Of a DNA stretch of 42,152 nt, positions 1 through 32,897 are shown one piece after another. Made by a program: the position numbers and the translations under genes. The notes beneath the pieces were generated by a model, which saw only the letters and a program-made list of their open reading frames with translations, ran no database searches and was not told the DNA's origin. The stretch comes from a virus: positions 1-42,152 of IMG/VR virus record IMGVR_UViG_3300030329_001651; one strand, 5' to 3'. Position 1 is the stretch's first letter, and every line of letters starts with the position of its first letter.

Positions 1-1
1 A

Positions 2-1168: not shown

Positions 1169-1428
1169 ATGTAAAAAACTATGTAAGTTTAAAAAGTAAA
1201 TCAGCAGTAAGTTTTAGTAAAGCTGATGATAGTGATGGAGTAACTCGTTACTATCTAACTCAAAAGAGATGGGATAGTGAAACAGGTACTGCTTTAGCTG
1301 ACCAAAAGTCAGAAGTAGAACTCAATCACTATGAAAATGAAAAGAGTCATATAGAAAATGAAATTGCTGAATTAACAAAAAGTAAAGATGCATTAACAGA
1401 GATAATAAAGGATATAAAAGCACTATGA
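1165..1428 (+). CDS. Hypothetical protein, coiled-coil C-terminus, next to fibre gene
   Basis: 87-aa protein of unknown function. The N-terminal half is polar and beta-like (KNYVSLKSKSAVSFSKADD). The C-terminal half (about residues 50-87) is a charged heptad-rich helix (HYENEKSHIENEIAELTKSK) that should form a coiled coil. Its ATG overlaps the fibre stop in an ATGA junction and its own stop overlaps the next start, so it is translated in series with the fibre. Position just after a fibre gene suggests a fibre chaperone, attachment or capping role, but no family was recognised. Confidence 0.75.
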   Translation: MNVKNYVSLKSKSAVSFSKADDSDGVTRYYLTQKRWDSETGTALADQKSEVELNHYENEKSHIENEIAELTKSKDALTEIIKDIKAL

Positions 1429-1643
1429 GTAAAAAACAAGACCCACAAGTACAAGATACTATAAAAAAAGAAGATTTAAAGCCTGAGCTTGAATCTGTAG
1501 TAAGTCAATATAATAAAGCTATTCAAGATAGAGCAACTGCAGATGAGTTAGCTAAACGATGCCTAGGAGCCATAGAAGTTTTACAAGGACTTATTGGTGA
1601 GGAGGAATCTAAAGAGGAGGTAGAAGCAGAAGTAGTTGAGTAA
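1425..1643 (+). CDS. Small acidic coiled-coil protein upstream of terminase
   Basis: 72-aa, Glu-rich, helical protein (PELESVVSQYNKAIQDRATA, then an acidic tail EEESKEEVEAEVVE). Starts inside the stop of the previous gene (ATGA junction) and its 3' end overlaps the terminase start by 8 nt. It occupies the place where a small terminase subunit often sits, but it is shorter than usual TerS proteins and I see no helix-turn-helix DNA-binding domain. It may be a structural or assembly co-factor. Function unknown. Confidence 0.72.
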   Translation: MSKKQDPQVQDTIKKEDLKPELESVVSQYNKAIQDRATADELAKRCLGAIEVLQGLIGEEESKEEVEAEVVE

Positions 1644-3189
1644 TATTAATACACATAACGTAAGTAAAGCTGAAGAAGATTTAAGGTTAGCTAGCAAAGA
1701 CTTAATAGCTTTTGGTAAATTATTTTTGCCTGAAGATTTTATGCGCTCTGAAAGTCCATTCTTTCATTACGAAGTAGCTGATTCTTTGTCTGATTTAAGC
1801 GTTAGACAGTTAGCTGTTATATTGCCAAGAGGACACGGGAAAACAGTATTAACTAAGTGTAATATAATGCAAGACTTTTGCTTTACGCAAGAGCCCTTAT
1901 TCTATGGTTGGGTGGCTGCTAGTTCTAAAATATCAGTCCCCAACCTAGATTATATCAAATATCATTTGGAATATAATGATAAAATAAAATATTATTTTGG
2001 AAATTTAAAAGGCAGGAAATGGACAGAAGATGATATCGAACTTAAGAATAACTGCAAACTTATTAGTAAATCTAATTTATCAGGTATTCGTGGTGGTGCT
2101 AAGCTACATAAAAGATATGATCTTATTATACTTGATGACTTTGAAGATGAAAATAATACAATTACGCCAGAATCGAGGTCTAAAATAAGCAATCTTGTTA
2201 CAGCTGTGGTATTCCCCGCACTGGAACCTAAAACAGGAAGATTGCGTATAAATGGAACTCCTGTGCATTTTGATGCTTTTATACAAAAGATTTTAATAGG
2301 TCATGAAAAAGCTAAAAAGGAAAAAGAGGATTTTGCTTGGAAAGTTATAACATATAAAGCTTTACAAGATGATGGAACCCCTCTTTGGCCTTCTTGGTTT
2401 GGTCATGAAGAAATGGAGAGAAAAAAGAAATTTTATCAAGACTCTGGTCAACCTCAGAAGTTTTATCAAGAATATATGATGGAAGTCCAAAGTGAAGAAG
2501 ATTCTATTTTCACAAGAGATCATATTAAATATTGGGACGGACAATTTATTCAGGAGGATGAAAGTGGGCTTAAATTTATTATACCAGATGGGGATGATGC
2601 AAAACCATGTAATATATTTGTTGGTGTTGATCCAGCAACTGATTCAGCAAGGCGTAATTCGGATTTCAGTGTTATCGTGGTTGTGGCAGTCACTCCAGAC
2701 AATAATTTATATGTCATAGATTATATTAGAAATAGAACATTGCCTGTATTGGGAGTACCAGGCACCGAAAAGAAAGGAATAGTTGATTATATATTTGAAT
2801 ATGCTAAGTTTTATAATCCTACTTTATTTACTATTGAAGATACAACTATGTCTAAGCCTATCTTTCAGGCTATCAGAGCTGAAATGAGGAGGAGAAATGA
2901 ATTTATTATACCGTTTAAAGAAGAAAAGCCTGGAACTCGTATGTCAAAGCGGGACAGGATTCAAGAAATACTTGCTCAAAGGTTTGCAGTGGGGCAAGTT
3001 CATATTAAAAAGTCTCAGTATGATTTACATAGGGAAATTATTACTTTTGGTCCGAGGATGGCGCATGATGATACGATTGACGCTTTGGCCTATGCGTGCA
3101 AGTACGCACATCCTCCTAAAGATTTTAAGGAGTCTAAGGAAGGTTGGTACAAAAGAAAACCAAAAGCGAAAAGCTGGGTAACAGCATGA
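1636..3189 (+). CDS. terL: Terminase large subunit (TerL)
   Basis: 517-aa DNA-packaging motor: an ATPase that drives DNA into the prohead and a nuclease that cuts the concatemer. Walker A is PRGHGKT (residues 64-70), Walker B LIILDDFED with D167/D168 and catalytic E170, and the coupling motif is NGTP near 207. The RNase H-like nuclease follows: first acid D332 in GVDPATD, E401 in TIED, and the C-terminal HDDTIDAL cluster (D478-D482). Length is normal for TerL. The start is a TTG overlapping the previous stop, with AGAGGAGG about 14 nt upstream; the first ATG would be 36 residues later and would remove conserved-looking N-terminal sequence, so TTG is preferred. No recognisable TerS lies beside it. 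Confidence 0.95.
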   Translation: MSNINTHNVSKAEEDLRLASKDLIAFGKLFLPEDFMRSESPFFHYEVADSLSDLSVRQLAVILPRGHGKTVLTKCNIMQDFCFTQEPLFYGWVAASSKISVPNLDYIKYHLEYNDKIKYYFGNLKGRKWTEDDIELKNNCKLISKSNLSGIRGGAKLHKRYDLIILDDFEDENNTITPESRSKISNLVTAVVFPALEPKTGRLRINGTPVHFDAFIQKILIGHEKAKKEKEDFAWKVITYKALQDDGTPLWPSWFGHEEMERKKKFYQDSGQPQKFYQEYMMEVQSEEDSIFTRDHIKYWDGQFIQEDESGLKFIIPDGDDAKPCNIFVGVDPATDSARRNSDFSVIVVVAVTPDNNLYVIDYIRNRTLPVLGVPGTEKKGIVDYIFEYAKFYNPTLFTIEDTTMSKPIFQAIRAEMRRRNEFIIPFKEEKPGTRMSKRDRIQEILAQRFAVGQVHIKKSQYDLHREIITFGPRMAHDDTIDALAYACKYAHPPKDFKESKEGWYKRKPKAKSWVTA

Positions 3190-3341
3190 TAAATGAAAGA
3201 GAATTTGTAATAGAGAGTCCTATAGGCTCTATAAAAAGCGATAGTGGGAACCATGTCGTAGATGTCATATCTGTAGTTGGTGTAATAGTTATATTGTTTA
3301 TAGGTAAAATAATAATAAAAAAGGTTATAGATAGGATATGA
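3186..3341 (+). CDS. Small single-span membrane protein
   Basis: 51-aa protein starting at the ATG that overlaps the terminase stop (ATGA). The N-terminal ~20 residues are polar; residues about 22-42 (VVDVISVVGVIVILFIGKIII) form one strongly hydrophobic segment followed by Lys/Arg, i.e. N-out/C-in by the positive-inside rule. It lies one gene block upstream of the endolysin, so a role in lysis (holin, pinholin or spanin-like) is possible. The short coupled reading frame and clean membrane segment support it as a real gene; the function is inference. Confidence 0.65.
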   Translation: MINEREFVIESPIGSIKSDSGNHVVDVISVVGVIVILFIGKIIIKKVIDRI

Positions 3342-3457
3342 ATGGTAAAGGCGATAAATATAGAGTTAAATGGTCTAAAGAATTTGAAGTAAACTATGAG
3401 AGGATATTCAATGCCAAAAAAAGCAAAGAAACCAAAAAGAAAGAAAACAGCAACTAG
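3338..3457 (+). CDS. 39-aa basic micro-protein
   Basis: Short frame starting at an ATG that overlaps the previous stop (ATATGA). Begins MNGKGDKYRVKWSKEFEVNYE and ends in a Lys/Glu-rich tail. It overlaps the next micro-gene in another frame for 47 nt. No family recognised. The tight coupling on both sides supports translation, but the overlap means only one of the two frames may be important. Confidence 0.5.
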   Translation: MNGKGDKYRVKWSKEFEVNYERIFNAKKSKETKKKENSN

Positions 3458-13904: not shown

Positions 13905-16900
13905 ATGCCAAAACAAATAGTTAAAATAGATAGATTTGAAGGTGGAATAAGCGAAGCTTCTGATCCTAGAGATATAGCTCCTAATGAGCTATCCAAAGCT
14001 ATAGGTGTTTCTACTGAAGACTTAGGAAAAATAAAACTTATAGGTAAGAATGATGGTTATGGTATAACTGATAAGACTTCAATGAATATAAAGGCGGGTT
14101 ATGGTTTATTTCAATTCAATCATGACTATGAAGGTGCTGGAGATACCTCGGATGTTACAACAGGAGTTGATACAGTAGATACTTTGGTTGCAAGTACAGT
14201 AGAAGATTTAGGGCCAGGAGAATATTCGAATGTAACATTGTATGAAACTGAAACTAGTGGAACCTTAAGTAATCCTACAGATATAAGAGCACATGTAACT
14301 ATTAATTCAATTACTGGAACTAATCTTGAGGAAGATCTTGATGGTAGTAATGATTATACATGGGTTAATATAGGAGATTTAGATTGGTTAACTCAAAATT
14401 GGAGAGCAACAACCTTAATGGGTGGTACATCTGGTGGTGGTAGTACTGCTAATATAGATGAGCAAAATGCTGATGCTGATTGGATAAGCACCGAAAATCC
14501 AGCTAGGGCAAATCCAAATGGAGATGCAAGTCAAGTTGCTAGACATGGATTGCTTTATAATAGAGAAGCTATAAAACATGAACATTTTCCTCCACAGGGA
14601 TGGAGAGTAGCTACAAATGATGATTGGAAGAATTTAGAAGGAGCTTGGGGTATGAGTGTCCAAAATCAAAATGCTGATGGATGGAGGACTTTTGATGGAT
14701 ATTATCCAGGACAAAACTTTTATTTTGATGCAAGATATCCTCAATCCTTCAATTTTTTAGATTGGACTAATATAATTCACCATTATGATTGGTTAGGATT
14801 TAATATAGTAGGTGCTGGCCGTAGGAATGGATGGACTGGTGCATATGAACATCATAAAGAATATGCAGGATTTTGGGCCAATCAAGAGATATGGGCACCA
14901 ATAAGACGATTTAGATATAATAATGGAGCTGTTGAATCTGAACATAGAGCAGATCAATGTCATGTTAATACAGGATATTCAGTAAGGCTTTGTAGGGATG
15001 CTGCAGGAGAAACAGTTACTCCTACTATTGATGGCTCTAGTATTGTTATTACTAGTTCTGGAAATGGTAGAAAGGCATCTAATTCAGCTAACTTTTGGGC
15101 AGTAGATGATGAGCTTTTTATAAAAGCAACAGATTTGGGAGATGGCGGTGGGGGCACTGATTATTTAAAATGTGATATTGCAACATTAATAAGGCCTTCA
15201 TATTCACAATTATTTGATAATTATATACTTCTACATGACAATCATAGTAGTTCTCCTAAATCATATGTTTATAGTAATAAAAATACATCATGGTCTGTAG
15301 GGTTAGATACTATTACATCAACTACTTCTGAGCCTAATTTTACTTTAATAGATGGAACATTAAGAATATCAGATGGTAATTATCAAAATTCTACTATGTT
15401 CTATTCTTATATAAAAAGAACTAGATTTCTTAATTATGCTAATACAGATCAAACAGGCATTACTGGTACGCCTGATGGAGATACAGGATTATCCATTACT
15501 AATCCAGGACCAGATGTAATTATTAGAGGTGAAAGTTCTTCTGGAGCTGCTGATGGAATGAGGATAACAGGTACAAATATTCCAGCCAATACAAGGATAG
15601 TCACTGTCACCAGTGCTACTGAATTAGTATTGTCTCAGTCAACAAGTTCTGGAAGTGAAGTTAATGATATTAGAATATTCAGTGAAAATAGTCTTAGCTA
15701 TGAAGAAGAAGGATGGAATATGACTTCAGCTATATTAAATCCTATTTCATTACAGGCTTTTAATTTTAAACAAAATCCTAATACAGATAATACTGTAGAT
15801 ACAGATGGTGCGATAATTATATGTCTTGAAGAATATGATGAATCTGGTTATCAAAGTAATTGGGTTGGTAAGAATTGGGAATTTGCTATGAGTACAATTT
15901 ATGATGATATTCAAGAATCTCCATTAGCTTTTGTTGAGACTTATAATATTGAAGGATCGTATAGCAATCAAACACATTTTATAGGATCTAATGCTAGTGA
16001 TGATCATGGCTATAGATTGAAATTTCAAATAAGAGCAAGCAAACAAGGCGATTTGCCTGCTAGAGTTACAGGATTTAAAGTTTATGCTAGAGAATATCTT
16101 GGCGAATCTACAGATTGGTATTTACAGGCTAGGTATGACTTAGAAAAAGGCGGAAGAGGAGTATTAAGCTCTAAAGAAGTCCCTTGGCATGATATGAATA
16201 ACACTACTGTTTATACTAGACCAGAAGTAAAAGATTTTAATGAATTAATAACATATACATTAGAAACTGGATATCCTACAGATAATATAACAGAAAATCA
16301 ATTAACTCCTAAATATAAAACTGGAGTTGTTGCAAATAGAAAGCTTTATGTAGCTGCTCCACAAATAGTTGATAATTTTGGGAATATAGATATAAAAAGC
16401 GATGCAATGATGAAATCCCATGTCAATAGATTTGATACATTTACTACTGATAGAATGGTAGAAGCTTCTGTACAAGATGGTGATAGAATAGTTAAATTAG
16501 AGGAATATGCCGATAGAATATTGCAATTTAAAGAGAATAAATTACATATAATAAATATATCACAAGATATAGAGTTTTTAGAAGATACATTAGAGCATAG
16601 AGGTATATCAAATCCAAATGCAGCTACCAAAACTGATATAGGGATAGCTTTTTTAAATAAATATGGAGCTTTTTTATATAATGGAAAAGAAACTATAGAT
16701 TTACTCCAAAAACAAGGGAGAAGATTAATAAGAGAAGATACATGGGCAGGCTTTATATCTGATGTTCCTAGTGTTTCTTATCTTCCAAAGTCAAAAAAAA
16801 TAATATTTTGTGACTGTGGAGATGGAACAGATGCATATATTTACGATTTAATAACTCAAGCCTGGTCCTATAGCAATGAAGCATTTGAGGCTGCAGATAA

Positions 16901-17354
16901 AACTAATATGGTATTAGATTGGAATGGTGATTTAATATATCAAATAGCTGGTGATATGAGGAAATTTAATGTATCTCCATCTTCTACAAGTTCTGGATCA
17001 TTAGATGTAAGAACTAAAGATATTGATTTTGGAAGTCCAGGGGTAAGAAAAAAGATTTATAAAGTATATATTACATATAAAAGTGGAGGTAGCACTACTA
17101 ATGTTCAAGTTAAATATGATGTAGATGGTGCTCAATCATTTTCAAAATTATTTAAAGATGGAGATAATTTTGCAAGCAATGAATTAGCTCATGTAAATTC
17201 TAATTGGACAATAGCAGAACTAAAGCCAAGTACATCATCACAAGCGAATAATATCAAATCATTTGCTTTAAGATTTTCTTGTGATGGAGCAGTTCCTTCT
17301 GGATTTGAAATAAATGATATATCTATAGTATATAGAGTAAAAGGTATTAAGTAA
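13905..17354 (+). CDS. Large tail hub/nozzle-type protein with inserted FISUMP domain
   Basis: 1149-aa structural protein. The N-terminus (IDRFEGGISEASDPRDIAPN, then ELSKAIGVS) is the opening seen in podovirus tail stabilisation/nozzle proteins, and the C-terminal ~450 residues (from about 700) look like the rest of that protein (LEEYADRILQFKENKLHIIN, ISYLPKSKKIIFCDCGDGTD-like blades). Residues about 148-366 are a FISUMP (Fibrobacter succinogenes major paralogous) domain: WVNIGDLDWLTQNW, GLLYNREA, PPQGWRVATNDDWKNLEGAW, AGFWANQEIWAP and the closing TGYSVRLCRD. A second small beta insert is at about 523-595. The FISUMP part is a likely surface-exposed binding module. Weak ribosome-binding site; next gene overlaps its stop. 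Confidence 0.75.
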   Translation: MPKQIVKIDRFEGGISEASDPRDIAPNELSKAIGVSTEDLGKIKLIGKNDGYGITDKTSMNIKAGYGLFQFNHDYEGAGDTSDVTTGVDTVDTLVASTVEDLGPGEYSNVTLYETETSGTLSNPTDIRAHVTINSITGTNLEEDLDGSNDYTWVNIGDLDWLTQNWRATTLMGGTSGGGSTANIDEQNADADWISTENPARANPNGDASQVARHGLLYNREAIKHEHFPPQGWRVATNDDWKNLEGAWGMSVQNQNADGWRTFDGYYPGQNFYFDARYPQSFNFLDWTNIIHHYDWLGFNIVGAGRRNGWTGAYEHHKEYAGFWANQEIWAPIRRFRYNNGAVESEHRADQCHVNTGYSVRLCRDAAGETVTPTIDGSSIVITSSGNGRKASNSANFWAVDDELFIKATDLGDGGGGTDYLKCDIATLIRPSYSQLFDNYILLHDNHSSSPKSYVYSNKNTSWSVGLDTITSTTSEPNFTLIDGTLRISDGNYQNSTMFYSYIKRTRFLNYANTDQTGITGTPDGDTGLSITNPGPDVIIRGESSSGAADGMRITGTNIPANTRIVTVTSATELVLSQSTSSGSEVNDIRIFSENSLSYEEEGWNMTSAILNPISLQAFNFKQNPNTDNTVDTDGAIIICLEEYDESGYQSNWVGKNWEFAMSTIYDDIQESPLAFVETYNIEGSYSNQTHFIGSNASDDHGYRLKFQIRASKQGDLPARVTGFKVYAREYLGESTDWYLQARYDLEKGGRGVLSSKEVPWHDMNNTTVYTRPEVKDFNELITYTLETGYPTDNITENQLTPKYKTGVVANRKLYVAAPQIVDNFGNIDIKSDAMMKSHVNRFDTFTTDRMVEASVQDGDRIVKLEEYADRILQFKENKLHIINISQDIEFLEDTLEHRGISNPNAATKTDIGIAFLNKYGAFLYNGKETIDLLQKQGRRLIREDTWAGFISDVPSVSYLPKSKKIIFCDCGDGTDAYIYDLITQAWSYSNEAFEAADKTNMVLDWNGDLIYQIAGDMRKFNVSPSSTSSGSLDVRTKDIDFGSPGVRKKIYKVYITYKSGGSTTNVQVKYDVDGAQSFSKLFKDGDNFASNELAHVNSNWTIAELKPSTSSQANNIKSFALRFSCDGAVPSGFEINDISIVYRVKGIK

Positions 17355-17578
17355 TGGGATTAGATAGAACAATAAGAAATTTAGTACATAAAAAGCAGGA
17401 AAGGGTTAATATTGCAAGAGGAAAGCCAAGATTGGCTGATATGAAAGAAGGAGTTCCTGAATTTAGATTTACAAATGACGAGAAATTATGTATGTATATA
17501 AGATATAATAATCAATTATGGAGAGCAAGATTTGATGTAGAAGGTACAAGCTCAGTAGGAATTACAATAGAGGTATAA
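17354..17578 (+). CDS. 74-aa protein between tail and fibre genes
   Basis: Coupled to both neighbours by TAATG overlaps. Basic N-terminus (LDRTIRNLVHKKQERVNIAR) and a beta-like C-terminus (LCMYIRYNNQLWRARFDVEG). Its position right before the fibre suggests a fibre adaptor or attachment piece, but no family is recognised. Confidence 0.6.
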   Translation: MGLDRTIRNLVHKKQERVNIARGKPRLADMKEGVPEFRFTNDEKLCMYIRYNNQLWRARFDVEGTSSVGITIEV

Positions 17579-20061
17579 TGGCTAAAATTAAAAATGTAAC
17601 TAAGATAGATCTAAGTGGACTAGGATTAACAGAAACTGGTAAAGGAAAAGTATCTGTTGGTCTTGGATCTGGTACTGGTACTACATTGGCTACAGCTAGT
17701 GGGGGTACTGGGCAAACTAGTTATACTAATGGTCAAATATTAATCGGCAAAAGTTCTGACAATTCTTTAGCAAAAGCAAGTATAACTGCAGACGCTCCAT
17801 TAGTTGTACAGCCTGGGAATGGTACTATTAATTTGCAATCAGCTCATTATTTTAGTTTAGAAGGAGATTCTGGATCTAATAGGTCTGTATTTCATAGTAA
17901 TACATTAGAAGTTTTAGGTGGTACTAATATAGCTACTACAATAGCTCAAGGGACAGATACTAATGACGACAGGGTAACTATTGACTTTGATGGCACTCTT
18001 CCAGTGGCCTCTGGAGGTACTGGAGCTACTAGCTTAACAGATAAAGCTGTATTGATAAGTCAAGATAGTGGGACTGATACTGTTGGCTCTGTTGCTATGT
18101 CTACTAATGGTAAGTTATTAATAGGAGGAACTGATGGACCAGCTGTGAATGATTTAACTGCTGGTGATGGTATAGCATCTACTACAGGAAATGGCACATT
18201 AGAATTGGCTGTAGATTTAAAAGCTAATGGTGGTTTAGAAATCCAAAGTAATAAAATAGCGGTTGACTTGCAACATTCTAATATAACTGGTACTTTACAA
18301 GTAGCTGATGGTGGAACAGGAGCTACGTCTCTTAATGATTTAATTACACTTGGTGACCATACTACTGGCAATTATGTAGTAGGAGCATCTACTGCAGATG
18401 GTATAGGATATAATTATGGAGTATCAGGCGATGCAAGGACTTTAAATTTAAATTTGCTTGGTGATATAGTAGTAGCTGCAAATAGTGGAAATGCTGCAAG
18501 TATATTGCTAGAGGCAGATGATAGTACTGATGCTGGAGATTCTTGGAAATTTATTGCGAATACAGATCACTCTTTAACTATAGGTAATGATAAGCATACT
18601 GCTGGCACTCATCTTGACCATTTTAAAATAATTCCACATACTGGCCCTTCACTTTCTGAAACTATAGTAGCTGGCGAATTGACATTGGGTGGGAATAAAA
18701 TAAATTGTTCTGATGGCAGTTTAACTATGGAATTAGATAATAGTGATAATGTAGATATTAAAGGAGATTTAACTGTTAGTGGTGGGGATATATCTGGTAC
18801 AGAAGATGGCTCTTTGACATTAAAGTCAGACACAGACTTAATATTCCAAGTAGATGCAGATCAAGCTAGTGGCGCTGGAGATGAAACATTCCAATTTAAA
18901 AATGGTGGTGGAACTGAAATTGCTCAAATAAATGAATCTGGAGATTTGCAAATAGATGGAGATTTGACTGTTAGTGGTGGGGATGCTATTATAAAAGCAG
19001 CAAATGATACTGCAGCTAGCTTATTACTTCAAGCTGATAATAGTGATGATGCAGGTGATGATTGGAAGATTCATGCAAATACTGATCAAACATTTTCAAT
19101 AGGAAATGATATAGATACTGAAGGTACTTTTGTAAAAATGCTAACTATAACACCACATGCCACAGCTACTAGCTCAACAGTAGCAGTTGCTGGTTCTTTA
19201 AGATTAGGATCCAATAAAATAATAGCAGCAGATGATAGTATAGCTGCTACATTTACAGGTAGTTCATGCTCTATAACAGGAGATTTAATTGCTAGTGCTG
19301 GAACTATAACAGCTAAAGGAGCTAATAATCAAGACGGTATACTTTACTTGCAATCAGATAATAATGATGATATGGGAGATTCTTGGAAGATTACATCTGC
19401 TCAAAGCAATCAATATCTTAGTATAAGTAATAATGCAGGTTCAGCTGGAGCATATAATAAATATTTTAGTATAATACCAAATGCTACAACAACGAGCTCT
19501 CTTGTTCATATATCAGGTATTCTTAAAATTGGCGCTAATGTAATACAAGCATCAGATGGTGGAAATACTATTACATTAGATACTGATGATAAAGTATCTA
19601 TAGCAGGATCATTAGAGGTTGGAAGTGCTACTAATAAATGGGGAGATGGGTACCATGGGAATAGTACTAAGATAGCTTTATTGCCTAGTGACTTTAATTT
19701 AAATAATGATTCAGGGACTAGATCTGTTTCCAATATTCAGACTGATGATGATGGTGGCTCTTCTAAGACTAAAGATGCTGCTAAAAATTACTATGCAATG
19801 AAAATCATACCAAAAGGATTTACTGCTACTCATGTTAGGGTTAATTGCAGTTCTAGTTTTGTAAATGCTGTTACTCCACATGATGGAAGTATTGCTAATG
19901 ATACTATTAATAGCCATACTATTGGAGCTACAAATTCAGACATTGCCTTTTCAGGAACAGATCCTGTTGGAGATGGTAATACATACGTAATAGTTGAATT
20001 TGACCCATCAAGTACATCTGATGCAATATATGGTGGCACAATAACTATAGCAAGAACATAA
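17578..20061 (+). CDS. Tail fibre with GGTGATS repeats
   Basis: 827-aa, Gly/Thr/Asp/Ser-rich fibre protein. Three copies of the phage-fibre motif ASGGTG(A/Q)TS are at about residues 39, 141 and 241. From about residue 308 the protein is built of three long repeats opening L-L/Y-x-A/S-D-x-S/N-D-D-x-G-D-x-W-K (near 308, 481 and 591), each followed by SIGND/SISNN-like, PHxTxTSS-like and LxLGxNKI-like strands. The C-terminus (about 715-827) is non-repetitive and may be the tip. Unlike the fibre at the left edge there is no S74 domain, so folding must be helped otherwise. Start and stop are both in TAATG overlaps. Confidence 0.85.
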   Translation: MAKIKNVTKIDLSGLGLTETGKGKVSVGLGSGTGTTLATASGGTGQTSYTNGQILIGKSSDNSLAKASITADAPLVVQPGNGTINLQSAHYFSLEGDSGSNRSVFHSNTLEVLGGTNIATTIAQGTDTNDDRVTIDFDGTLPVASGGTGATSLTDKAVLISQDSGTDTVGSVAMSTNGKLLIGGTDGPAVNDLTAGDGIASTTGNGTLELAVDLKANGGLEIQSNKIAVDLQHSNITGTLQVADGGTGATSLNDLITLGDHTTGNYVVGASTADGIGYNYGVSGDARTLNLNLLGDIVVAANSGNAASILLEADDSTDAGDSWKFIANTDHSLTIGNDKHTAGTHLDHFKIIPHTGPSLSETIVAGELTLGGNKINCSDGSLTMELDNSDNVDIKGDLTVSGGDISGTEDGSLTLKSDTDLIFQVDADQASGAGDETFQFKNGGGTEIAQINESGDLQIDGDLTVSGGDAIIKAANDTAASLLLQADNSDDAGDDWKIHANTDQTFSIGNDIDTEGTFVKMLTITPHATATSSTVAVAGSLRLGSNKIIAADDSIAATFTGSSCSITGDLIASAGTITAKGANNQDGILYLQSDNNDDMGDSWKITSAQSNQYLSISNNAGSAGAYNKYFSIIPNATTTSSLVHISGILKIGANVIQASDGGNTITLDTDDKVSIAGSLEVGSATNKWGDGYHGNSTKIALLPSDFNLNNDSGTRSVSNIQTDDDGGSSKTKDAAKNYYAMKIIPKGFTATHVRVNCSSSFVNAVTPHDGSIANDTINSHTIGATNSDIAFSGTDPVGDGNTYVIVEFDPSSTSDAIYGGTITIART
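18499..19640 (+). repeat. Three protein-coding tandem repeats inside the tail fibre
   Basis: Degenerate units begin near 18499, 19015 and 19336. The shared DNA/protein core is the D-x-D-S/N-x-D-D-x-G-D-x-W-K block, then a beta-strand series ending in an Asn-Lys/Asn-Val-Ile strand. The first unit is longer because an extra module (with SGTEDGS and GGGTEIAQI) sits between 18780 and 18990, flanked by near-identical 24-nt segments (18765-18789 and 18957-18981) encoding GDLTVSGGD. Such blocks are suited to fibre-length change by recombination. Confidence 0.7.
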
Positions 20062-20672
20062 TGTTAAAGCAATATAATATAGATAAATATAATAAAGAAA
20101 TATTATTGCAAGATAATAAATATCAAGTAATGATGGAATGGGAAAAGCCTTATATGGAGGCTTGTATAGATAAATTAAAACCTAGTGGGAATGTATTAGA
20201 AGTAGGATTTGGTATGGGATATTCAGCCACTCAAATACAAAAATATAAACCCAAATCTCATACAATAATTGAGATGGATAAAGAAGTATTAAAAAGATTA
20301 AAAAAATGGGCAAAAGATTATGATAATATCAATATAATAGAAGGTACTTGGCAAAAGACATTAAATACCTTAGGGAAGTTTGATGAAATATTTTTTGATG
20401 ATTATCCATTAAAATTCCCAGAAAGTGAAATTGAAAGAAAGTTAATAACAGAGAGATTTTATATGTTTTTAGATATATGCGCTTATAGTCATAGCAATAA
20501 AGATACTAAGATATCAGGATATATACATGATCCTGATGGATTCTTCAAAGAACGAATGGATAATAATATACATTACTTATATAAAGAATATACAATGAAT
20601 ACTAATATTCCAGATAATTGCAATTATTATAGAGACAGTAAATGTATAATACCTTTAATTATTAAAAATTAA
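20061..20672 (+). CDS. GAMT/RMT2-like S-adenosylmethionine methyltransferase
   Basis: 203-aa class I methyltransferase that resembles guanidinoacetate N-methyltransferase. The front part matches the family order: MEWEKPYM (25-32; GAMT has MERWETPYM-like), SAM loop VLEVGFGMG (45-53), acidic IIEMD (69-73), EGTW (94-97) and FFDDYP (111-116), where D113 lines up with the GAMT catalytic Asp in YDTYP. The C-terminal half is more divergent (DNCNYYRD, IPLIIKN). Known relatives methylate guanidino groups (guanidinoacetate, or protein arginine in RMT2). Gene overlaps the fibre stop and precedes the ejection genes. Target unknown: a virion protein or a host metabolite. Confidence 0.8.
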   Translation: MLKQYNIDKYNKEILLQDNKYQVMMEWEKPYMEACIDKLKPSGNVLEVGFGMGYSATQIQKYKPKSHTIIEMDKEVLKRLKKWAKDYDNINIIEGTWQKTLNTLGKFDEIFFDDYPLKFPESEIERKLITERFYMFLDICAYSHSNKDTKISGYIHDPDGFFKERMDNNIHYLYKEYTMNTNIPDNCNYYRDSKCIIPLIIKN

Positions 20673-23990: not shown

Positions 23991-26900
23991 ATGAGTGAAG
24001 ACATAAAAAGACAGTACCTAGAACTTTTAAGTAAAAATTCAAGAAAAGAACCTGTAGCTATTGATAGCACCTTTGATAGGTTTTCAGATATAGATTTGTA
24101 TGGTTCTTTGGAAGAAGAGGCTTCTAGTTTATGGGATAATTTAGGAGGAATCGGAGAATACTTTGGAAAAGGAATTGCTTCTGGAGTTACCTTAGGTGCT
24201 TCTGAATTTGTGCCAGGAATGGATATAACTTGGGATGAAATGGATTCTGGTGAAAAAGCAGGGTATATAGCTGGAGAAGGTTTGTCTATGCTTATTCCAT
24301 TTATGGCAGCAGGAAGGGGTCTTAGAGCTTTATCTACGCTTGCCAAGGGTGGGAAGGTACGTGCAGTTAAAGATACTGTTAAAATGGTTGATTCTGCATT
24401 TTTAAAAGGTAATTCTGAGCAAATAGCAAGAACAGTAAATAGAGCTGCTAAAAAACAAGGGATAAAACCTGGAGAAGTAATGTCAGGATTATCCTCTAAG
24501 GTTCAACAAAAATTAAAGAAAGATTTATTAGAAAAGCCATATTCTCAAGCTTTATTTGATCAAGCTGCTAAAGGCGTTGCAAAAGAGAATGGAAGAAAAG
24601 TATTGCAAGAAAGAACAGCAGCTAGCGTAAAACAAGCTGTAAATGACATGGGAATGCGTATAGGAAAGTCTGAAGCAGATAAAATGGCTAAAATATTTAC
24701 AGAAAATCTAAGTAAAGGGATAACTCACAACGATTCTGCTGATATGATAGCTAAGATAATAGGTGGTGCAGATCCAGGAGTATTTAAATCTATTTTTAGT
24801 AAATATGCTGGAAATGCTGCTAATACCTCTGCAATAATGATAGGTCATAATTTAATAAGAGATGCTATAGTGGCTAGGGCTAGAGGAACTGAATATTCTC
24901 CTGGGGCTTCTGTTGTAGGTGGTGCGCAAATGGGATTAATATTCCCTGCATTACAAGCTATACCTAATATTGCTTTTGGGGCAAAAGGTACTGGAACTTT
25001 ATTCAAGCAATCTACAGACCAGCAGTTTTGGTTACAAGGTGTCCCTTTAATGTTGAGGAATTTAAACAAAACAAATTATGAGAATATATATAAAACGCAT
25101 GGTATAAAGCCTTTAAGAGGTTTATTAAAAATGATGACTGAAGGTGGAAAGTTTAATGTTCATAATACTAGTAGACTTGGATCCTCTGCATATAAATTAA
25201 AAAGTGGTAAAATTGTAAATTCTCCATATCAAATAAAACTTGCTGCTGATACTATGAGCAAAGACGATGTTATAGGATTACTAAATACATATAGAAGAGA
25301 AATTAGTGCAAGCGCTAAAAAGCAATGGTTTAAAGATTATGCTTATGATTTCTTAGGTAGTATGCCTAGAATGGCTGTAGGAATTGCTACAATGGGCTCT
25401 GAATTAGTATCTGGCTGGACAGAAGGTAATTTAAGTGGAGAAGAACTAGCGGCTCATTTAATGTCATCTGCATTTATGACTAAAAGTCAAGGAGCTTGGG
25501 CTTCAAAGGGTAGATATAATTATTTAATGGATTTTAGCCCTCATCAAAAAGCTATGGACAGGATGGACTTAAATGGCGATGCCTTACATGAAATATTTAA
25601 CTTTAGAAGAGAAGGAGTTGAAGATTTAATAGCTGATTCATTTTATGATGGCGAAGTTGTTAAGCAAATAGAAGATGTGTTTGATTCTTATGATGTTAAA
25701 GGGGCTACTAAAGATCCAGATATCAATGCTTATGATGTTACTCAGCACTCTATTATAGATAAATTTCAAAAAATATATAATGAAATACAAGGGCATAAAA
25801 AAGGTATAAATTACTTAAGTGATAATATAGTAGACATAAAAAATAAGAACTTTAATAAAGCCGATTTAGATGGAATGACTGTAGCTTTAAAAAATATTAA
25901 ATTTGAAGATGGACTATCAGTAGCTGATATGACGTTAGATAGATTTAGAGCTAGAATATTTAAAAACTCCTCAGACTCTATTAAGAAGGCATATACTGAT
26001 GACTTGTTTATGGCATTAAAAAATATAGGGTTAGATATAACTCCAGTAGGAGATAGGGGTGGAGTTAAATTTCAAGTAGCTCCTGTAATTGGAAAGGATA
26101 TGGGCGTTCTTTCAGACTATATGAATTTAATAAATAGATTTTCTACAGAAAAAGGACAACTTGGATTAGTTGAAATTCTAAATAATAGAAGGCAAAATTA
26201 TAACGACTTTAGCGAAACTCAAAAATCTCAAATAAAAGATTTATTTGACACTCATATATCAGAGCTAAACAAAGTATTTAATTTAAATGGTGTTAATTAT
26301 GATATACATGATAATCCATATATAACATTAATGAAACAAGGCAATGAAGCTGAGTCAGTAGAGAGGCTTTATTCGGTATTAGATGGAACATCAAAAGAAA
26401 CAAGCGATCAAAATCTTACAGCTAATATCGTACAGTTATTCGGCAGAGGCAAAGGAGCAGGAGGTGGATTTCTACAAAATATAGATAGCTATAAATTTGA
26501 CTATAAGAATGTTGATAAGAAATCAGAGCAGGAAGCTAAAGAAGCTTTTCCAGAAGCCGAATTAAAAGAAAAATTAAGACCTATATTAGAACTTGCAAGA
26601 CTTGAACATACAGATCCTGTAGATCCAGATAGAGCTATGATACCTATAGATGTTGGATTAGCAAATACAGTTATAAATAATTTTGAAAATATCAAATCAT
26701 TTCTACCAAGTAGATATAGAGAAGATTTTAATACACTTGGTGTTAGTCGTATTAGGGCTGATTATTGGGCTAATGAGGGAATAGATGCAAGAGTAGTATC
26801 TAGTATGAAAGCTTTACAAGATTCAGGCCTTGGCGATTATAAGAATGGTAAGATGGAAGTGCCTAATAGAGAAGCTATAATGTATATGGGAAAAGAAATG

Positions 26901-29900
26901 GTAGATAGTAAAGTAATTTCCCAAAATGAGCTAGTTAGAATAGCAAATAGAGCTGATGAAGTGTATAAGAAAATTGGGAGCGAAAGACTCTATCAATATA
27001 AAGTTGCATTACTCCCTGGAGAAGAAGCTAGGGGCTTCAAATCTCCTGATATAAGGGATTTTAATACAATATGGTCTTTATTCAAACAGGATGATTTAAA
27101 TAAATTCATAGAAAATTCCGATACAATAATAAGTCAATTACAAAATATAGACAGTGTTAATCAAGACAATGTGAATTTCATATTAGATAGATTAATGGGA
27201 ATAGCCTCAGGCAATATAAATAATACTGATGTAATAGATGCCTTAACAGTTGTAAGGGATAGAGTGAGTAAAGCTATTAAAAGTGAGCAATACACAAAAG
27301 ATTATAAAAAACTATTAACTGAAATAGACTCAATAAGGAAAAAGCTTGCTACTTTAAATGTTCCAGAGATAGATGGATATATTAATGAAAAAAGTGGTGA
27401 TTTAAAGTCAATGTCTGACCTGATTAATGATATTTTCGGTCGTGAACAAAAGATAAAAAATGATGCTGCAAAAGAGATATTTAATTTAGTAGCTCTAAGA
27501 AAAAGTAATGATTTGAGCGCTGAAGAAGTTCTGATGATCAAAGATAGAGCAGAACAAAATATAAGAGCTATATTAAAAATGCAAGTAGATGAATCTATAC
27601 CTTTAGAAGAATTAATATCTGAAATAAATTCTACTAGAGATTGGGCATCATTTAAAGATGTTATAAAAAATATCCATGAAAGTATAGAAGTTAATTTAGC
27701 TGCTAAAGATAGAGCTGAATTTTTGAGAACCGATTCTGATGCCTTTAGTAACTTAGCTCATAATAAAGATATACACTTTTCTTCAGATACATTCCAGAGT
27801 ATAGCAGGTAGATATAATTTACTTGATGTTGATGGTAGGAATATAGATCCTGAAATAGTTAAATATATAGCTAAAAATAAGAATAGAAAAACAATCTTAT
27901 CAGGTTTAAAAACTCAAGTTAGAAATAAGCTTAAAGAGCTAAAATTAAGTAGAACTGAAATGATAGATAAGATGGCTGATTGGGAAAGGTCAGCTCCATT
28001 ATTCTTAAATACTATGCTAAGAAAGAAGCCTAAGCATACATTAAGGCTTATAGCTCATGGTAAGAAATTAATTGTTGAGTCAGATTCTCATAAAATATCT
28101 TCTGATGATATAGTTAGTCAATGGTTCGATGACAAAGGATTTGATGTAAGCTATGTTCAAAATACTATGCTAAAAGTAAATGCTAAGAATAAGGTAGTTA
28201 CTGATAGTGTTGAAAATTTTTCAGGAGAAGATGGTGCAGATGCTATAAATCAATTAATTAACAAAGATATAGCCTTTGTTCCTAAAACAGGTATAGAGTT
28301 ATTTAGCAAATATGCAGATGGAAGTATAGCTGACAAAGATTTAAAAGTTTTAATTGATAAGTATAAAAGTGAGATCATTCCTAATGGAGAAGATGCTAAT
28401 TATATAAGACTAACTCCTGGAAATGCTGTATTGTTTCATGGTACACCAGAAAATAAAGCTAAATTATTTAAGAGTTTTAAGAAATTCTATAATGACAACT
28501 CTAAAAAAGGCTTTGATGATATAACAATAAAAGATAAGGATGGTCACAAGAGAGATATATCTGGAGAATTATTAAAGAAGCAATTTGAAACTACATTTGA
28601 GGATATATATGATAAGGATATAACTAGTAAAAAAGAAGATGAGTTAAAGATTATTACATTGTTTGCATCTGAAAAGCCAAGAGAATTTGCTAAATGGCTT
28701 GCAGCTAAGCATATTGGGGACTCAGATGTTATGAGATTAACAGAAGCTAATATGGTTAAAAGAGACTGGCTTGTTGATGGTGGTACCACAATAAGGCCTC
28801 ATAAAACAATTATAAAAGCTTTCGGCAAGAATTATCACGACCCAGATGTACAAGCATTTGCTAATGAACTTGTAAATAATAATTTTGAAATGGATGTAAC
28901 TGTATTTGCAGATGAAGCAGATGGTGCTGGTACTAATATTGTAGAAAGGTTTCAAGAGCAAATTAATGATAGAAAACATGTTACTGGAGATGCAAAGGCA
29001 AACAAATTATCTAAATTTGTAGCGAAACAACAACTAGACGATACTAGTCCTCAAAATATAAAAAGAGAATTACCATCATTGAGGAATGCCTCTACCGATG
29101 GAATAAAATATGCGAGTCATGCTTTAGCTAAATTTAATATGGCTTTAAAGGGTGGAGATTTGGACAAAATTGGTGGGTTTAAGACTGTTTTAGCTCAATT
29201 AGGTGAGAATAGCTTGCTTGGTAAAGGCTATCTTGTTTATGATCCTTTAATAGCTAATAAAATGGCTCCTGGAGTTCATATAGCATTGGGAGAAAGTGCT
29301 GCTAAAACATTTGGCTTTAATGTTAATGCATTAAATGTCCCAGGTAAAAATTGGTTTGATGCTCTTCCAAATGCCACATCTGATAATAATGTTAAATTTA
29401 GTATAGAAAATATGGGAATTGGATTTTATGCTAAGCCAACCAAAGGAGTAAGTCTTTCTAATTCTATGACACATCTTGAGAGCCATAAATATACTCAAGA
29501 TTTTATAAAGATAGCAGGTATAGATAAAGCTATAAGTATTGTAGATGCTACTAATAGAACAAGAGTTGATTCTGAGAATGAATTATTGTCATATTTAAAT
29601 CAAAAAAATAAGGATGAGGGATTTACTCAGAAATTAGGCTTAACAAGTGAATTGATAGAAGATGGGATGAATATTAATAATATAGCTATAAAATCTGATA
29701 TAGATAGAGCCTTGAGAAATGAATATTTTACTGCACTCTCAGGATTATCTACAAGACATGGCAGAGATTATACGATAGTTCCTGATGCTGGTAGCGATTT
29801 AATTATGCCTGAAATAGTAAATTTAAAATCTAAAGTTCTAGGCAAGGAAGAAACTGTCTGGAGAGCTAGTAAAACATATGGGGAGATAGCTCCTGATGCA

Positions 29901-32897
29901 AATGGCATGTCGGAAACTTTAGACAATATAAACAATACAGCTTTTATTATTAGATATAAAGGTTTGGACTTTACATCTTATATTAATGATATATTCCAGC
30001 CTCTTGTTGAAAAAACTTCTAAGAACAAAGATTGGGACTTAGGAGAAGCTGGCAAGGATATAGATATAAGTTGGACTAGGGATAAGAAAGCTTTATACAA
30101 TCACGTACAAAATATCATGAAGCCTATTTATGCTGAATTTAAAAAGATGGATACTAATGGCAACAAGCTTTCAATGCATGATATGTATAGAATGTTAGAA
30201 GGCCAAGAAGTTAGAATGAATGGTAAGAGATTAAAACTTACAAGATCATCTTTAAAAGCTGTAAAAGATCATAACATAGCTCTAGGTGCTTCAGGACTTG
30301 CTATTCCTCTAAAAATACATGATAAAGCTGTACATAGAATTGCTAAAGTTCATAACAATACAGGCCTTGTAAGAATAAATCATTATGATGAAAGAGTTGT
30401 ACATCAAAGAGATAATGATGGAGACCATTTTTATACTCATTTTCAATTAACTCCTAATATGTTAAAAGCTCATTCTAATGAGATGACTATAAATAAAGAT
30501 TTTAGAATGTACGAAAAAGAGCTTCCTGATATAAATTTATTTGGAATTGATTATGACAATATATCTTCATCAAAAGTAAATGCAGACCCTGGAGCAGTTG
30601 GAGTTTCTAAATATTTAGGACATTTAGATAACCAAAAAAGAACTATAGGTATAACTATAGGGGATAGACAGGCTTATGATATACTTAATAAGCTGAATCT
30701 TACATTTAAAAAAGGCATTATAGACAAAGATGATGGTCTTTTTATTAAAAACATTATGTCAGACAATATTAACAATATGACAGATGACAAAGGTAAAATT
30801 GTAGTTAGGGAAGGAGAAATGGGTCAGAATGGTGTAGATATACATGGAGGCACTTCTCAGCAATATAAATCTCCTGATATAAAAACCATAAAAAGATTTG
30901 ATATAAGACCAGAAGGATCTGATTTTAAATATTCAAATGGCGATAAAGTAGAAAAATTAGATAAGCCATTGTTTAATATAGATCCTAATAGCATGATAGA
31001 AAGAGATATGGCTGATCATCTTATTATGTCTCTAAAGAAGATAAATGTTATAAATAGCGATGTATACGATCAGGGTACAAAAAGAGCTCCCGAACCTAAT
31101 GAAATACAAGATGCTTATTTTAATTTAAGAAGATTATTTGAAGATCCAACTCAGTTTATTATAGATGGGCTTATAAATAGATACTCTCAGCTAGATGGCA
31201 AGAATAAGAAAGCTGCTTTTAATGAGTTGATAAGATATTTTTATAAGGACGAGAATTGGAGTATTAACGAGCAGTTAAGTCTTGGAAAATTTAAGAAAGA
31301 ACTACTCAAGGGATCTGAAGCATTTCAGGTCTTGCCTTATAAAAAATTAAGATTTGAAGGATTCTCTATTGATGCAAAATTAGATTATGCATCTAAAGAA
31401 AAGAAAATAAAAGATATGTTTTATAGAATGCCTCAAGGTAAGATACTATATGACGTAGTAAGAAAGAATGTCTTCAAAGAAAAGGATAGTAATTTTGCAG
31501 AAGCTGACTATAAATATCATAATAAAGTAGGTAGCGTGGCAAGACAAGCTTTAAATAATATTAATTATCTAAAAGCTATAGGAACTAGTGTTGATGAGAT
31601 AGTAAGAGATTATAAGTTTCTTGATCTTAAAGGCAATACAATAAGCTATGAAAATGTTGATCCAGTAAAGATTAAAGAAGGAGTTACTATGGGTGCTATA
31701 AGAAGCTCTTATCATAGGTTATACTCTAGATTGTCTAGAAATTTAGAGTATTATAGTGATTCCAACTTCCATACTTCTATGGACAAAGTCAATATGAGAG
31801 ACATACAGCATCAAATGAAAAATATAGAATCAGCCTTGGATATTATGGATAAACAATGGGCTAATAAAGTAATAGCTGAAGGTGCACAAAGTGCCAATGT
31901 AGTTGATAAGTTCAAAACTGGGTGGCACAAACCTAAAGATAAAGTATTTGTATTGTCCTTTAAGGGTAGTAAGGATAAAATAAATAAGTTTCAAGAGAAA
32001 AAAGAAGGAGATGTATCTTTATCTGATTTCCATCAAGTAGGATGGGTAGATCCTAAAGGCAAAAGAAATGGATATAAAAGATTAAAAGGCTTTACATATA
32101 TAGAAGTAAAGAATCCTATGATGCATGAGTCTGTTTCTGCTACTGATGGTATGTATGCTAAACACTTATCTGATATGAGTGCAAGGCTAGAAGTAGAAAG
32201 GGTAGGATCTGATGCAGATCAGCTTGATTTTCTGTCTAGCGTAAGATTTACTAGGAATATCGTTAGAGATGGCTTTAGTAGGGCTATAAGGGATACAAGG
32301 GGAGAACTCTCCTTAAAAGACCAAATATGGGCCTTAACAGACGCTAGGGAAAGATTTTACATAGGAGATTACTTTAAAAAGAATTTAATGGATGATGATG
32401 GTAATTTATTATTAGATGTAAAATCAGAAAGAGATGGTTATAAGTTTTTAGCTCAATATCTAATTAAACCTGATGCATTAATGAGTAAATACGTATCTAC
32501 TACAGTAGACAATAAAAATGTACAGCTACCTGCCTATAAAATAAATAAGAGATTAGTTAAATCTACATTTAAATGGTTGAATGAGAACGGTATGAGAGAT
32601 ATTACTAAGGAGATTGTACAAGAATGGGAAGGAAGAGTAAATGGTACTATATCAGAATCTTATGATTTTACTAGTAGGTATTTTGATAATAGAAGTCCTG
32701 GATTCAATTATGATAGCTTTGGTAAAGGAGCTAATTTAATAAAAAGTATTTCAGGTAGTGGCTTTGCTAGTCCGTTTTATAAATTTCACATACAAAATAG
32801 ACCTTATAATATTAATAAAAAAGAGGTTGGAAAGACTTTTGATGGATCAAAGCAATATAGAGCTACTTTTAAAAGAAGAGAAAGAGAAGACTGTTAA
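23991..32897 (+). CDS. Giant ejection protein with candidate RNA polymerase active site (virion RNAP candidate)
   Basis: 2968 aa, over a fifth of the window. The N-terminus (about 60-120, GKGIASGVTLGASEFVPGMD and SMLIPFMAAGRGLRALSTLA) is glycine-rich and membrane-active looking, as in internal head proteins. At 2141-2145 is DNDGD, followed by HFYTHFQLT; the pattern DxDGD-x-F/M-x-x-H-x-x-LT lines up with the beta-prime catalytic loop (DFDGDQMAVHVPLT in bacterial RNAP). Just before it, HRIAKVHNNTGLVRINHYD fits the lead-in strand. At 1745-1772 KGYLVYDPLIANK...GESAAK could be the partner barrel with two lysines. After the motif comes AVGVSKYLGHLDNQKRTIG. Remainder is helical and unassigned. The role is inferred; an EF-hand-type loop is the main alternative. 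No other polymerase is in the window. Confidence 0.75.
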   Translation: MSEDIKRQYLELLSKNSRKEPVAIDSTFDRFSDIDLYGSLEEEASSLWDNLGGIGEYFGKGIASGVTLGASEFVPGMDITWDEMDSGEKAGYIAGEGLSMLIPFMAAGRGLRALSTLAKGGKVRAVKDTVKMVDSAFLKGNSEQIARTVNRAAKKQGIKPGEVMSGLSSKVQQKLKKDLLEKPYSQALFDQAAKGVAKENGRKVLQERTAASVKQAVNDMGMRIGKSEADKMAKIFTENLSKGITHNDSADMIAKIIGGADPGVFKSIFSKYAGNAANTSAIMIGHNLIRDAIVARARGTEYSPGASVVGGAQMGLIFPALQAIPNIAFGAKGTGTLFKQSTDQQFWLQGVPLMLRNLNKTNYENIYKTHGIKPLRGLLKMMTEGGKFNVHNTSRLGSSAYKLKSGKIVNSPYQIKLAADTMSKDDVIGLLNTYRREISASAKKQWFKDYAYDFLGSMPRMAVGIATMGSELVSGWTEGNLSGEELAAHLMSSAFMTKSQGAWASKGRYNYLMDFSPHQKAMDRMDLNGDALHEIFNFRREGVEDLIADSFYDGEVVKQIEDVFDSYDVKGATKDPDINAYDVTQHSIIDKFQKIYNEIQGHKKGINYLSDNIVDIKNKNFNKADLDGMTVALKNIKFEDGLSVADMTLDRFRARIFKNSSDSIKKAYTDDLFMALKNIGLDITPVGDRGGVKFQVAPVIGKDMGVLSDYMNLINRFSTEKGQLGLVEILNNRRQNYNDFSETQKSQIKDLFDTHISELNKVFNLNGVNYDIHDNPYITLMKQGNEAESVERLYSVLDGTSKETSDQNLTANIVQLFGRGKGAGGGFLQNIDSYKFDYKNVDKKSEQEAKEAFPEAELKEKLRPILELARLEHTDPVDPDRAMIPIDVGLANTVINNFENIKSFLPSRYREDFNTLGVSRIRADYWANEGIDARVVSSMKALQDSGLGDYKNGKMEVPNREAIMYMGKEMVDSKVISQNELVRIANRADEVYKKIGSERLYQYKVALLPGEEARGFKSPDIRDFNTIWSLFKQDDLNKFIENSDTIISQLQNIDSVNQDNVNFILDRLMGIASGNINNTDVIDALTVVRDRVSKAIKSEQYTKDYKKLLTEIDSIRKKLATLNVPEIDGYINEKSGDLKSMSDLINDIFGREQKIKNDAAKEIFNLVALRKSNDLSAEEVLMIKDRAEQNIRAILKMQVDESIPLEELISEINSTRDWASFKDVIKNIHESIEVNLAAKDRAEFLRTDSDAFSNLAHNKDIHFSSDTFQSIAGRYNLLDVDGRNIDPEIVKYIAKNKNRKTILSGLKTQVRNKLKELKLSRTEMIDKMADWERSAPLFLNTMLRKKPKHTLRLIAHGKKLIVESDSHKISSDDIVSQWFDDKGFDVSYVQNTMLKVNAKNKVVTDSVENFSGEDGADAINQLINKDIAFVPKTGIELFSKYADGSIADKDLKVLIDKYKSEIIPNGEDANYIRLTPGNAVLFHGTPENKAKLFKSFKKFYNDNSKKGFDDITIKDKDGHKRDISGELLKKQFETTFEDIYDKDITSKKEDELKIITLFASEKPREFAKWLAAKHIGDSDVMRLTEANMVKRDWLVDGGTTIRPHKTIIKAFGKNYHDPDVQAFANELVNNNFEMDVTVFADEADGAGTNIVERFQEQINDRKHVTGDAKANKLSKFVAKQQLDDTSPQNIKRELPSLRNASTDGIKYASHALAKFNMALKGGDLDKIGGFKTVLAQLGENSLLGKGYLVYDPLIANKMAPGVHIALGESAAKTFGFNVNALNVPGKNWFDALPNATSDNNVKFSIENMGIGFYAKPTKGVSLSNSMTHLESHKYTQDFIKIAGIDKAISIVDATNRTRVDSENELLSYLNQKNKDEGFTQKLGLTSELIEDGMNINNIAIKSDIDRALRNEYFTALSGLSTRHGRDYTIVPDAGSDLIMPEIVNLKSKVLGKEETVWRASKTYGEIAPDANGMSETLDNINNTAFIIRYKGLDFTSYINDIFQPLVEKTSKNKDWDLGEAGKDIDISWTRDKKALYNHVQNIMKPIYAEFKKMDTNGNKLSMHDMYRMLEGQEVRMNGKRLKLTRSSLKAVKDHNIALGASGLAIPLKIHDKAVHRIAKVHNNTGLVRINHYDERVVHQRDNDGDHFYTHFQLTPNMLKAHSNEMTINKDFRMYEKELPDINLFGIDYDNISSSKVNADPGAVGVSKYLGHLDNQKRTIGITIGDRQAYDILNKLNLTFKKGIIDKDDGLFIKNIMSDNINNMTDDKGKIVVREGEMGQNGVDIHGGTSQQYKSPDIKTIKRFDIRPEGSDFKYSNGDKVEKLDKPLFNIDPNSMIERDMADHLIMSLKKINVINSDVYDQGTKRAPEPNEIQDAYFNLRRLFEDPTQFIIDGLINRYSQLDGKNKKAAFNELIRYFYKDENWSINEQLSLGKFKKELLKGSEAFQVLPYKKLRFEGFSIDAKLDYASKEKKIKDMFYRMPQGKILYDVVRKNVFKEKDSNFAEADYKYHNKVGSVARQALNNINYLKAIGTSVDEIVRDYKFLDLKGNTISYENVDPVKIKEGVTMGAIRSSYHRLYSRLSRNLEYYSDSNFHTSMDKVNMRDIQHQMKNIESALDIMDKQWANKVIAEGAQSANVVDKFKTGWHKPKDKVFVLSFKGSKDKINKFQEKKEGDVSLSDFHQVGWVDPKGKRNGYKRLKGFTYIEVKNPMMHESVSATDGMYAKHLSDMSARLEVERVGSDADQLDFLSSVRFTRNIVRDGFSRAIRDTRGELSLKDQIWALTDARERFYIGDYFKKNLMDDDGNLLLDVKSERDGYKFLAQYLIKPDALMSKYVSTTVDNKNVQLPAYKINKRLVKSTFKWLNENGMRDITKEIVQEWEGRVNGTISESYDFTSRYFDNRSPGFNYDSFGKGANLIKSISGSGFASPFYKFHIQNRPYNINKKEVGKTFDGSKQYRATFKRREREDC

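Follow-up and report, generated by a model that had tools for sequence, protein, structure and literature searches.

Guanidinoacetate methyltransferase (GAMT, EC 2.1.1.2) is regarded as having a protein-methylating relative in RMT2, a fungal protein arginine delta-N-methyltransferase that bears N-terminal ankyrin-type repeats and targets ribosomal protein L12. In GAMT itself, Asp134 serves as the proton acceptor of the reaction (PMC12471008; PMC12842229). An ocean-virome study (PMC11360552) interpreted a viral GAMT (K00542), found in nine Arctic virus populations, as an auxiliary metabolic gene of creatine biosynthesis; with viral copies exceeding microbial ones 85.4-fold, it presented this as the step of oceanic creatine synthesis most enriched in viruses. 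A 2026 report (PMC13288928) on phages lacking a methyltransferase of their own described methylated lysine and arginine in structural proteins, tail-fibre arginine of free virions included. The literature searched, which left most subscription journals outside its scope, describes no experimentally tested phage enzyme of the GAMT-like family; an earlier note on the DNA considered here had likewise known of none, and had missed the computational report on ocean viruses.

A GAMT-like gene is found in a 42,152-nucleotide stretch of viral DNA (IMG/VR record IMGVR_UViG_3300030329_001651), the whole of which is referred to as the window. Its open reading frame, with an ATG start, lies exactly where the earlier note had given it (Table 1), and the resemblance to GAMT motif order that the note had claimed is far above chance by sequence, profile and fold. 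In a phmmer search of the PDB, four GAMT entries came out on top (E values from 2e-16 to 2e-15, best 2.4e-16), followed by the next family at an E value of 0.0014. A profile of 48 relatives matched rat GAMT over its full length (E = 1.8e-27), including the C-terminal PxxCxYY...PLV strand. An AlphaFold2 model built on the 48-sequence alignment (mean pLDDT 94.5, pTM 0.91) was compared with known structures by Foldseek, as the earlier note had suggested, and by VIA-align. Human GAMT (Z 23.9) and rat GAMT (Z 23.7) ranked first, with about 191 residues aligned at an rmsd of 2.2 and 2.1 Å, respectively, and with model residues 1-203 corresponding to GAMT 22-236. The next fold family, COMT, reached a Z of 16.8; with GAMT 7 Z units ahead, the best structural match is thus not another methyltransferase family, an outcome that the earlier note had named among those refuting its reading. 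COMT and spermidine synthase were rejected as the nearest fold, at 7-8 Z units under GAMT. General domain libraries detected just the SAM-binding methyltransferase stretch of the protein, and RrnaAD, PCMT, KsgA, Erm and spermidine-synthase identities, which cover that stretch only and are much weaker than GAMT, were set aside. Domain scans of single sequences added nothing further. Homology and modelling together place the whole product in the GAMT-like fold family with near certainty.

The phage protein shares with GAMT (rat 1xcj, human 3orh) the full-length fold, the Glu of the WE motif, the catalytic Asp, the Glu of the SAM site and the C-terminal CxYY...P strand. It differs in its overall identity (27% in the structural alignment), in reading DDYP where GAMT has DTYP, and in the substrate region that follows the strand. 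The lid segment above the active site (GAMT residues ~1-42) is present in part, while nothing in the phage protein corresponds to the very first residues of GAMT. RMT2, likened here by description, presumably has a similar motif order. It differs from the phage protein in its ankyrin-type repeats: the model comprises the methyltransferase domain only, and a length of 203 residues leaves no room for N-terminal repeats of the RMT2 type.

Alignment to rat GAMT pairs W27-E28 with W44-E45, and D113 with D134. The Asp of the DxYP motif is therefore kept, as the earlier note had stated; its numbering of the WE-motif Glu as E26 was wrong, the residue aligned with GAMT E45 being E28 (M24 M25 E26 W27 E28 K29). 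Over 48 phage and chlamydial sequences E28, E71, W97, D113, D114 and Y189 are invariant; the equivalents of GAMT E45, E89 and D134 show no change. Residues M24, W27, M32, E47, G49, G51 and D108 are also unchanged across phage and chlamydial members. D114 constitutes an extra invariant acid next to D113, at a position occupied by Thr in GAMT. By their alignment, E28 and D113 would line the substrate pocket.

Table 1. Features of the methyltransferase gene and its upstream neighbour, in window coordinates.
Feature	Position	Strand	Basis
Tail-fibre-like protein, 827 aa, directly upstream of the methyltransferase	17578-20061	+	Residues 30-87 match PHROG_31660 (tail fiber protein), E 3.4e-11
C-terminal beta-sandwich (CBM-like) domain of the fibre-like protein, ending ...GGTITIART; candidate substrate	19612-20058	+	Domain HMM, genome search, AF2 pLDDT 78.7, Foldseek/VIA
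TAATG stop/start overlap of fibre-like gene and methyltransferase	20059-20063	+	Sequence
203-aa class I SAM methyltransferase, GAMT-like	20061-20672	+	ORF; GAMT best by sequence, profile and fold; AF2 pLDDT 94.5
Codon of E28, equivalent of GAMT E45 (WE motif)	20142-20144	+	Alignment to GAMT; invariant in 48 sequences
Codon of D113, equivalent of GAMT catalytic base D134	20397-20399	+	Alignment to GAMT; invariant in 48 sequences

Relatives of this enzyme are carried by at least 127 viral contigs in a degenerate scan of IMG/VR; the best 80 of these were listed, and 66 were analysed and reduced to 49 nonredundant sequences. Among 50,697 phage records a single relative was found, in a 634,780-bp metagenomic megaphage, and the plasmids searched contained none. 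A scan of GTDB, with one genome per species, yielded 23 close cellular relatives, nearly all from Chlamydiota or from genomes labelled Verrucomicrobia; the 24th match (L111) is an unrelated methyltransferase and was left out. A midpoint-rooted tree parts the sampled set into two groups. Group one (support 100/99) unites all 23 cellular genes with ten distinct phages, the window among them. The phylogeny of phage and cellular members proposed in the earlier note thus places the window and the domain-linked phages, within the sampled loci, in one clade with chlamydial genes. The note had described GAMT as mainly a eukaryotic enzyme, and it had missed the close cellular homologues in Chlamydiota. 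On the tree, two cellular relatives labelled Acidobacteria and Aerophobetes and several labelled Verrucomicrobia fall inside the chlamydial sequences, and these genomes may be misnamed bins.

In ten of ten distinct phages of the window clade, a gene bearing one particular domain, which in the window forms the C-terminus of the fibre-like protein, is located directly upstream of the methyltransferase gene, at a gap of at most 23 bp or with an overlap. Counting phages, the pairing requires one change on the tree, and the domain HMM gave no match in the remaining phage loci. When the domain itself was used as the query, the reverse search recovered a new case (L112) and then its near-copy (L131), both with the methyltransferase directly downstream. 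The settings of the pair are diverse. In the window its neighbourhood comprises the fibre gene and, downstream, large genes of virion type. In L011 and L013 the pair separates the major head protein gene from the head maturation protease gene, and in L008 it separates the major head protein gene from that of a connector protein, so that homologous head genes stand on different sides of the pair in L008 and L011. In L009 and L010 the pair adjoins an SbcC-like gene, and in L015 it precedes genes for DNA polymerase and ribonucleotide reductase. Since the surroundings differ while the pair persists, the domain and enzyme genes travel as one unit. One domain copy was found without the methyltransferase (L134, positions 1-3387), where a 75-aa open reading frame follows instead. 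The pairing of domain and enzyme is strong, and the literature searched contains no earlier mention of it.

The AlphaFold2 model of the partner domain is a beta-sandwich of moderate confidence (pLDDT 78.7). Its best Foldseek match is to CBM6 modules (E = 4.4e-4), with CBM6/35-type modules among the matches; VIA Z scores of 8-9.1 are near background, many folds being tied within one Z unit, including other CBMs and phage tail proteins. The model suggests that the domain forms an exposed, perhaps glycan-binding, tip. Arginine occurs within the last five residues of 11 of the 12 domain copies, a count equalled in none of 20,000 within-sequence shuffles, a test that overstates significance because the domain sequences are related. 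No arginine is strictly conserved within the domain. The copy in L014 is paired with the enzyme yet lacks a C-terminal arginine, so this site cannot be universal, and it was rejected as a general target; the enzyme-free copy in L134 ends in ...GGKIAIQAV, also without arginine. The pattern at the C-termini is a hint, from sequence, that the arginine may be the acceptor in the copies that carry it.

The explanation preferred here, held at slightly less than an even chance, is that the enzyme is a SAM-dependent N-methyltransferase acting on the C-terminal domain of the upstream fibre-like protein. The enzyme would be co-produced with this protein via the overlapping stop and start codons, an arrangement in which translational coupling is possible. 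By analogy with GAMT, E28 and D113 would grip a guanidinium or similar nitrogen group, D113 would accept the proton, and SAM would donate its methyl group. We infer that the substrate is the beta-sandwich domain, as a probably exposed, perhaps glycan-binding, tip; that the likeliest acceptor is an arginine near its C-terminus; and that methylation would affect receptor binding or tip stability. The earlier note had proposed either arginine of a virion protein or a guanidino compound of the host. A virion substrate is favoured by gene context in all ten phages, and also by that of the sister clade, with its oxygenase genes and its frequent adhesin-like gene upstream. Arginine is hinted at by 11 of 12 copies, and the host compound is weakened because a search of 11 fragmentary phage records turned up no partner enzyme of the creatine pathway. 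Against the preferred explanation, the domain can exist without the enzyme, as in L134, the enzyme occurs without the domain in the sister clade and in the four chlamydial genomes searched, and the linkage may stem from joint transfer alone. A bolder version of it, possible and still doubtful, would make this the phage's own dedicated protein-arginine methyltransferase for a receptor-binding tip domain, the first phage enzyme of its kind, with the sister clade extending tip modification more widely and the creatine reading being wrong.

Alternatively, the enzyme may methylate protein elsewhere: on a different virion protein, at a position that is not arginine, such as lysine, asparagine, glutamine or a terminus, or on a protein of the host, for example a ribosomal one as with RMT2. 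GAMT-like folds are known to include protein methyltransferases such as RMT2, the partner domain offers no strictly conserved arginine, and D114, as an acid added where GAMT has Thr, may mean a changed acceptor. Further support comes from the homologues of environmental Chlamydiota (loci L088-L110), which work in cells without the partner domain. They are conserved chromosomal genes encoding ~285-320 aa, and a family member at E ≤1e-10 is present in 46 of 234 genomes of the phylum. Like the window protein, to which they are 57-65% identical over approximately residues 4-118, they belong to group one, and their C-terminal half resembles that of the group-one phage enzymes. They differ from it in being longer, through an insert after DDYPL, and in being solitary genes. 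The domain was absent from the four chlamydial genomes searched, so either the chlamydial enzymes must have other substrates or the phage enzyme has changed its target. Constant pairing with one domain across settings would, however, be unexpected for an enzyme with an unrelated target, and this alternative is considered fairly unlikely.

A small molecule is the third candidate substrate, either a metabolite of host or phage (guanidino or other) or a glycan or nucleotide-sugar precursor, with 2OG oxygenases as further tailoring enzymes. GAMT's own substrate is a free metabolite, and the sister clade (group two) lies among oxygenase genes. This group consists mostly of loci with runs of ~200-aa genes, in which 2OG families are the commonest Pfam neighbours and a 2OG-oxygenase-like gene directly adjoins the methyltransferase in 27 of 40 loci. 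Some of the loci also have carbamoyltransferase, sulfotransferase and glycosyltransferase genes nearby. In L061 (positions 94-1461) the GAMT-like methyltransferase is naturally fused to a DUF6445 domain, kin to cyanophage proteins annotated as 2OG oxygenases. The stretches of the window clade that were examined are different in this respect: they contain no oxygenase gene, and the virion-type domain is always present. The phage records searched also yielded no further gene of a guanidino pathway. A small-molecule substrate is therefore judged unlikely for the window enzyme. For group two itself, the lack of the partner domain and a C-terminal half that differs from that of group one mean that its substrate must differ. 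Glycine-rich adhesin-like genes precede the methyltransferase in 22 loci and follow it in 2 (p = 3.6e-5, sign test, kinship ignored). The C-terminal arginine reading was rejected for this clade, as no common arginine is evident at the C-termini examined of the glycine-rich proteins. One subgroup (L039, L048, L052, L053, L067 and L069) fits neither pattern, its neighbours including no oxygenase and no adhesin gene.

Creatine synthesis is, to our knowledge, not a usual bacterial pathway. The window enzyme could nevertheless be a true GAMT, encoded by an auxiliary metabolic gene and making creatine during infection, as published for K00542 of ocean viruses. The similarity to GAMT in sequence and fold speaks for this, as does the published annotation with its marked viral excess (PMC11360552). 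That report is computational, deals with ocean viruses and, matched by description, probably covers the same viral gene family; it differs in its creatine reading, and as far as its part on this gene extends, gene context, domain partner and oxygenase link do not enter into it. Neither amidinotransferase (PF02274) nor guanidino kinase (PF00217) was detected in 11 phage records, a weak argument given that the records are fragments, that the host could supply these enzymes, and that the PF00217 control matched no control genome. PF00217 did match in four chlamydial genomes, where the matches are probably McsB. The phage gene differs from GAMT in its context as well, which is a virion domain or an oxygenase cluster and not metabolism. 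Creatine synthesis by the viral enzyme is thus unlikely, and the full reading as an auxiliary metabolic gene is very improbable.

Least credible is the absence of any functional link, an ordinary methyltransferase having been carried along with a neighbouring adhesin gene on exchangeable cassettes. Recombination is concentrated in the adhesin regions of phages and the domain was once found without the enzyme, yet the pair holds while all around it changes, in non-adhesin settings too, down to overlapping genes.

The gene context therefore suggests virion modification rather than the creatine role published for viral GAMT. If the enzyme does methylate the partner domain, research on phage-protein methylation would gain a concrete enzyme-substrate pair, with the enzyme encoded by the phage and linked to a single virion domain. 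The case also advises caution, in that auxiliary metabolic genes should not be named by their nearest annotated orthologue alone.

Several further features accompany these loci. L013 (record G008) carries three tandem stand-alone copies of the domain at 16272-17869, between the head protease and head genes, and these may possibly be head decoration proteins. Loci such as L044, L047, L060 and L075 contain several different 2OG-Fe(II) oxygenase-like genes in a row behind glycine-rich (31-37% Gly) adhesin-like genes, whose products share a C-terminal GxWxLxxQ...W motif. The portal of the window phage has remote matches only, to P22-like portals of Vibrio and Aeromonas phages; the analysis therefore puts forward no host and reads no host prediction into the chlamydial kinship of the enzyme. 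The earlier note had placed the methyltransferase gene between fibre and internal virion genes. The layout of the window fits this, and the large downstream genes are probably internal virion genes, although Pfam and PHROGs give no family name to any of them. Downstream of the methyltransferase, at 23991-32897, lies a single 2968-aa open reading frame with no family assigned, an exceptional size for a phage contig of 42 kb. One gene ahead of the fibre-like gene, at 13905-17354, a 1149-aa protein contains a Fibrobacter succinogenes major domain (PF09603, E = 2.1e-19), and its homologue occupies the same relative place in L049.
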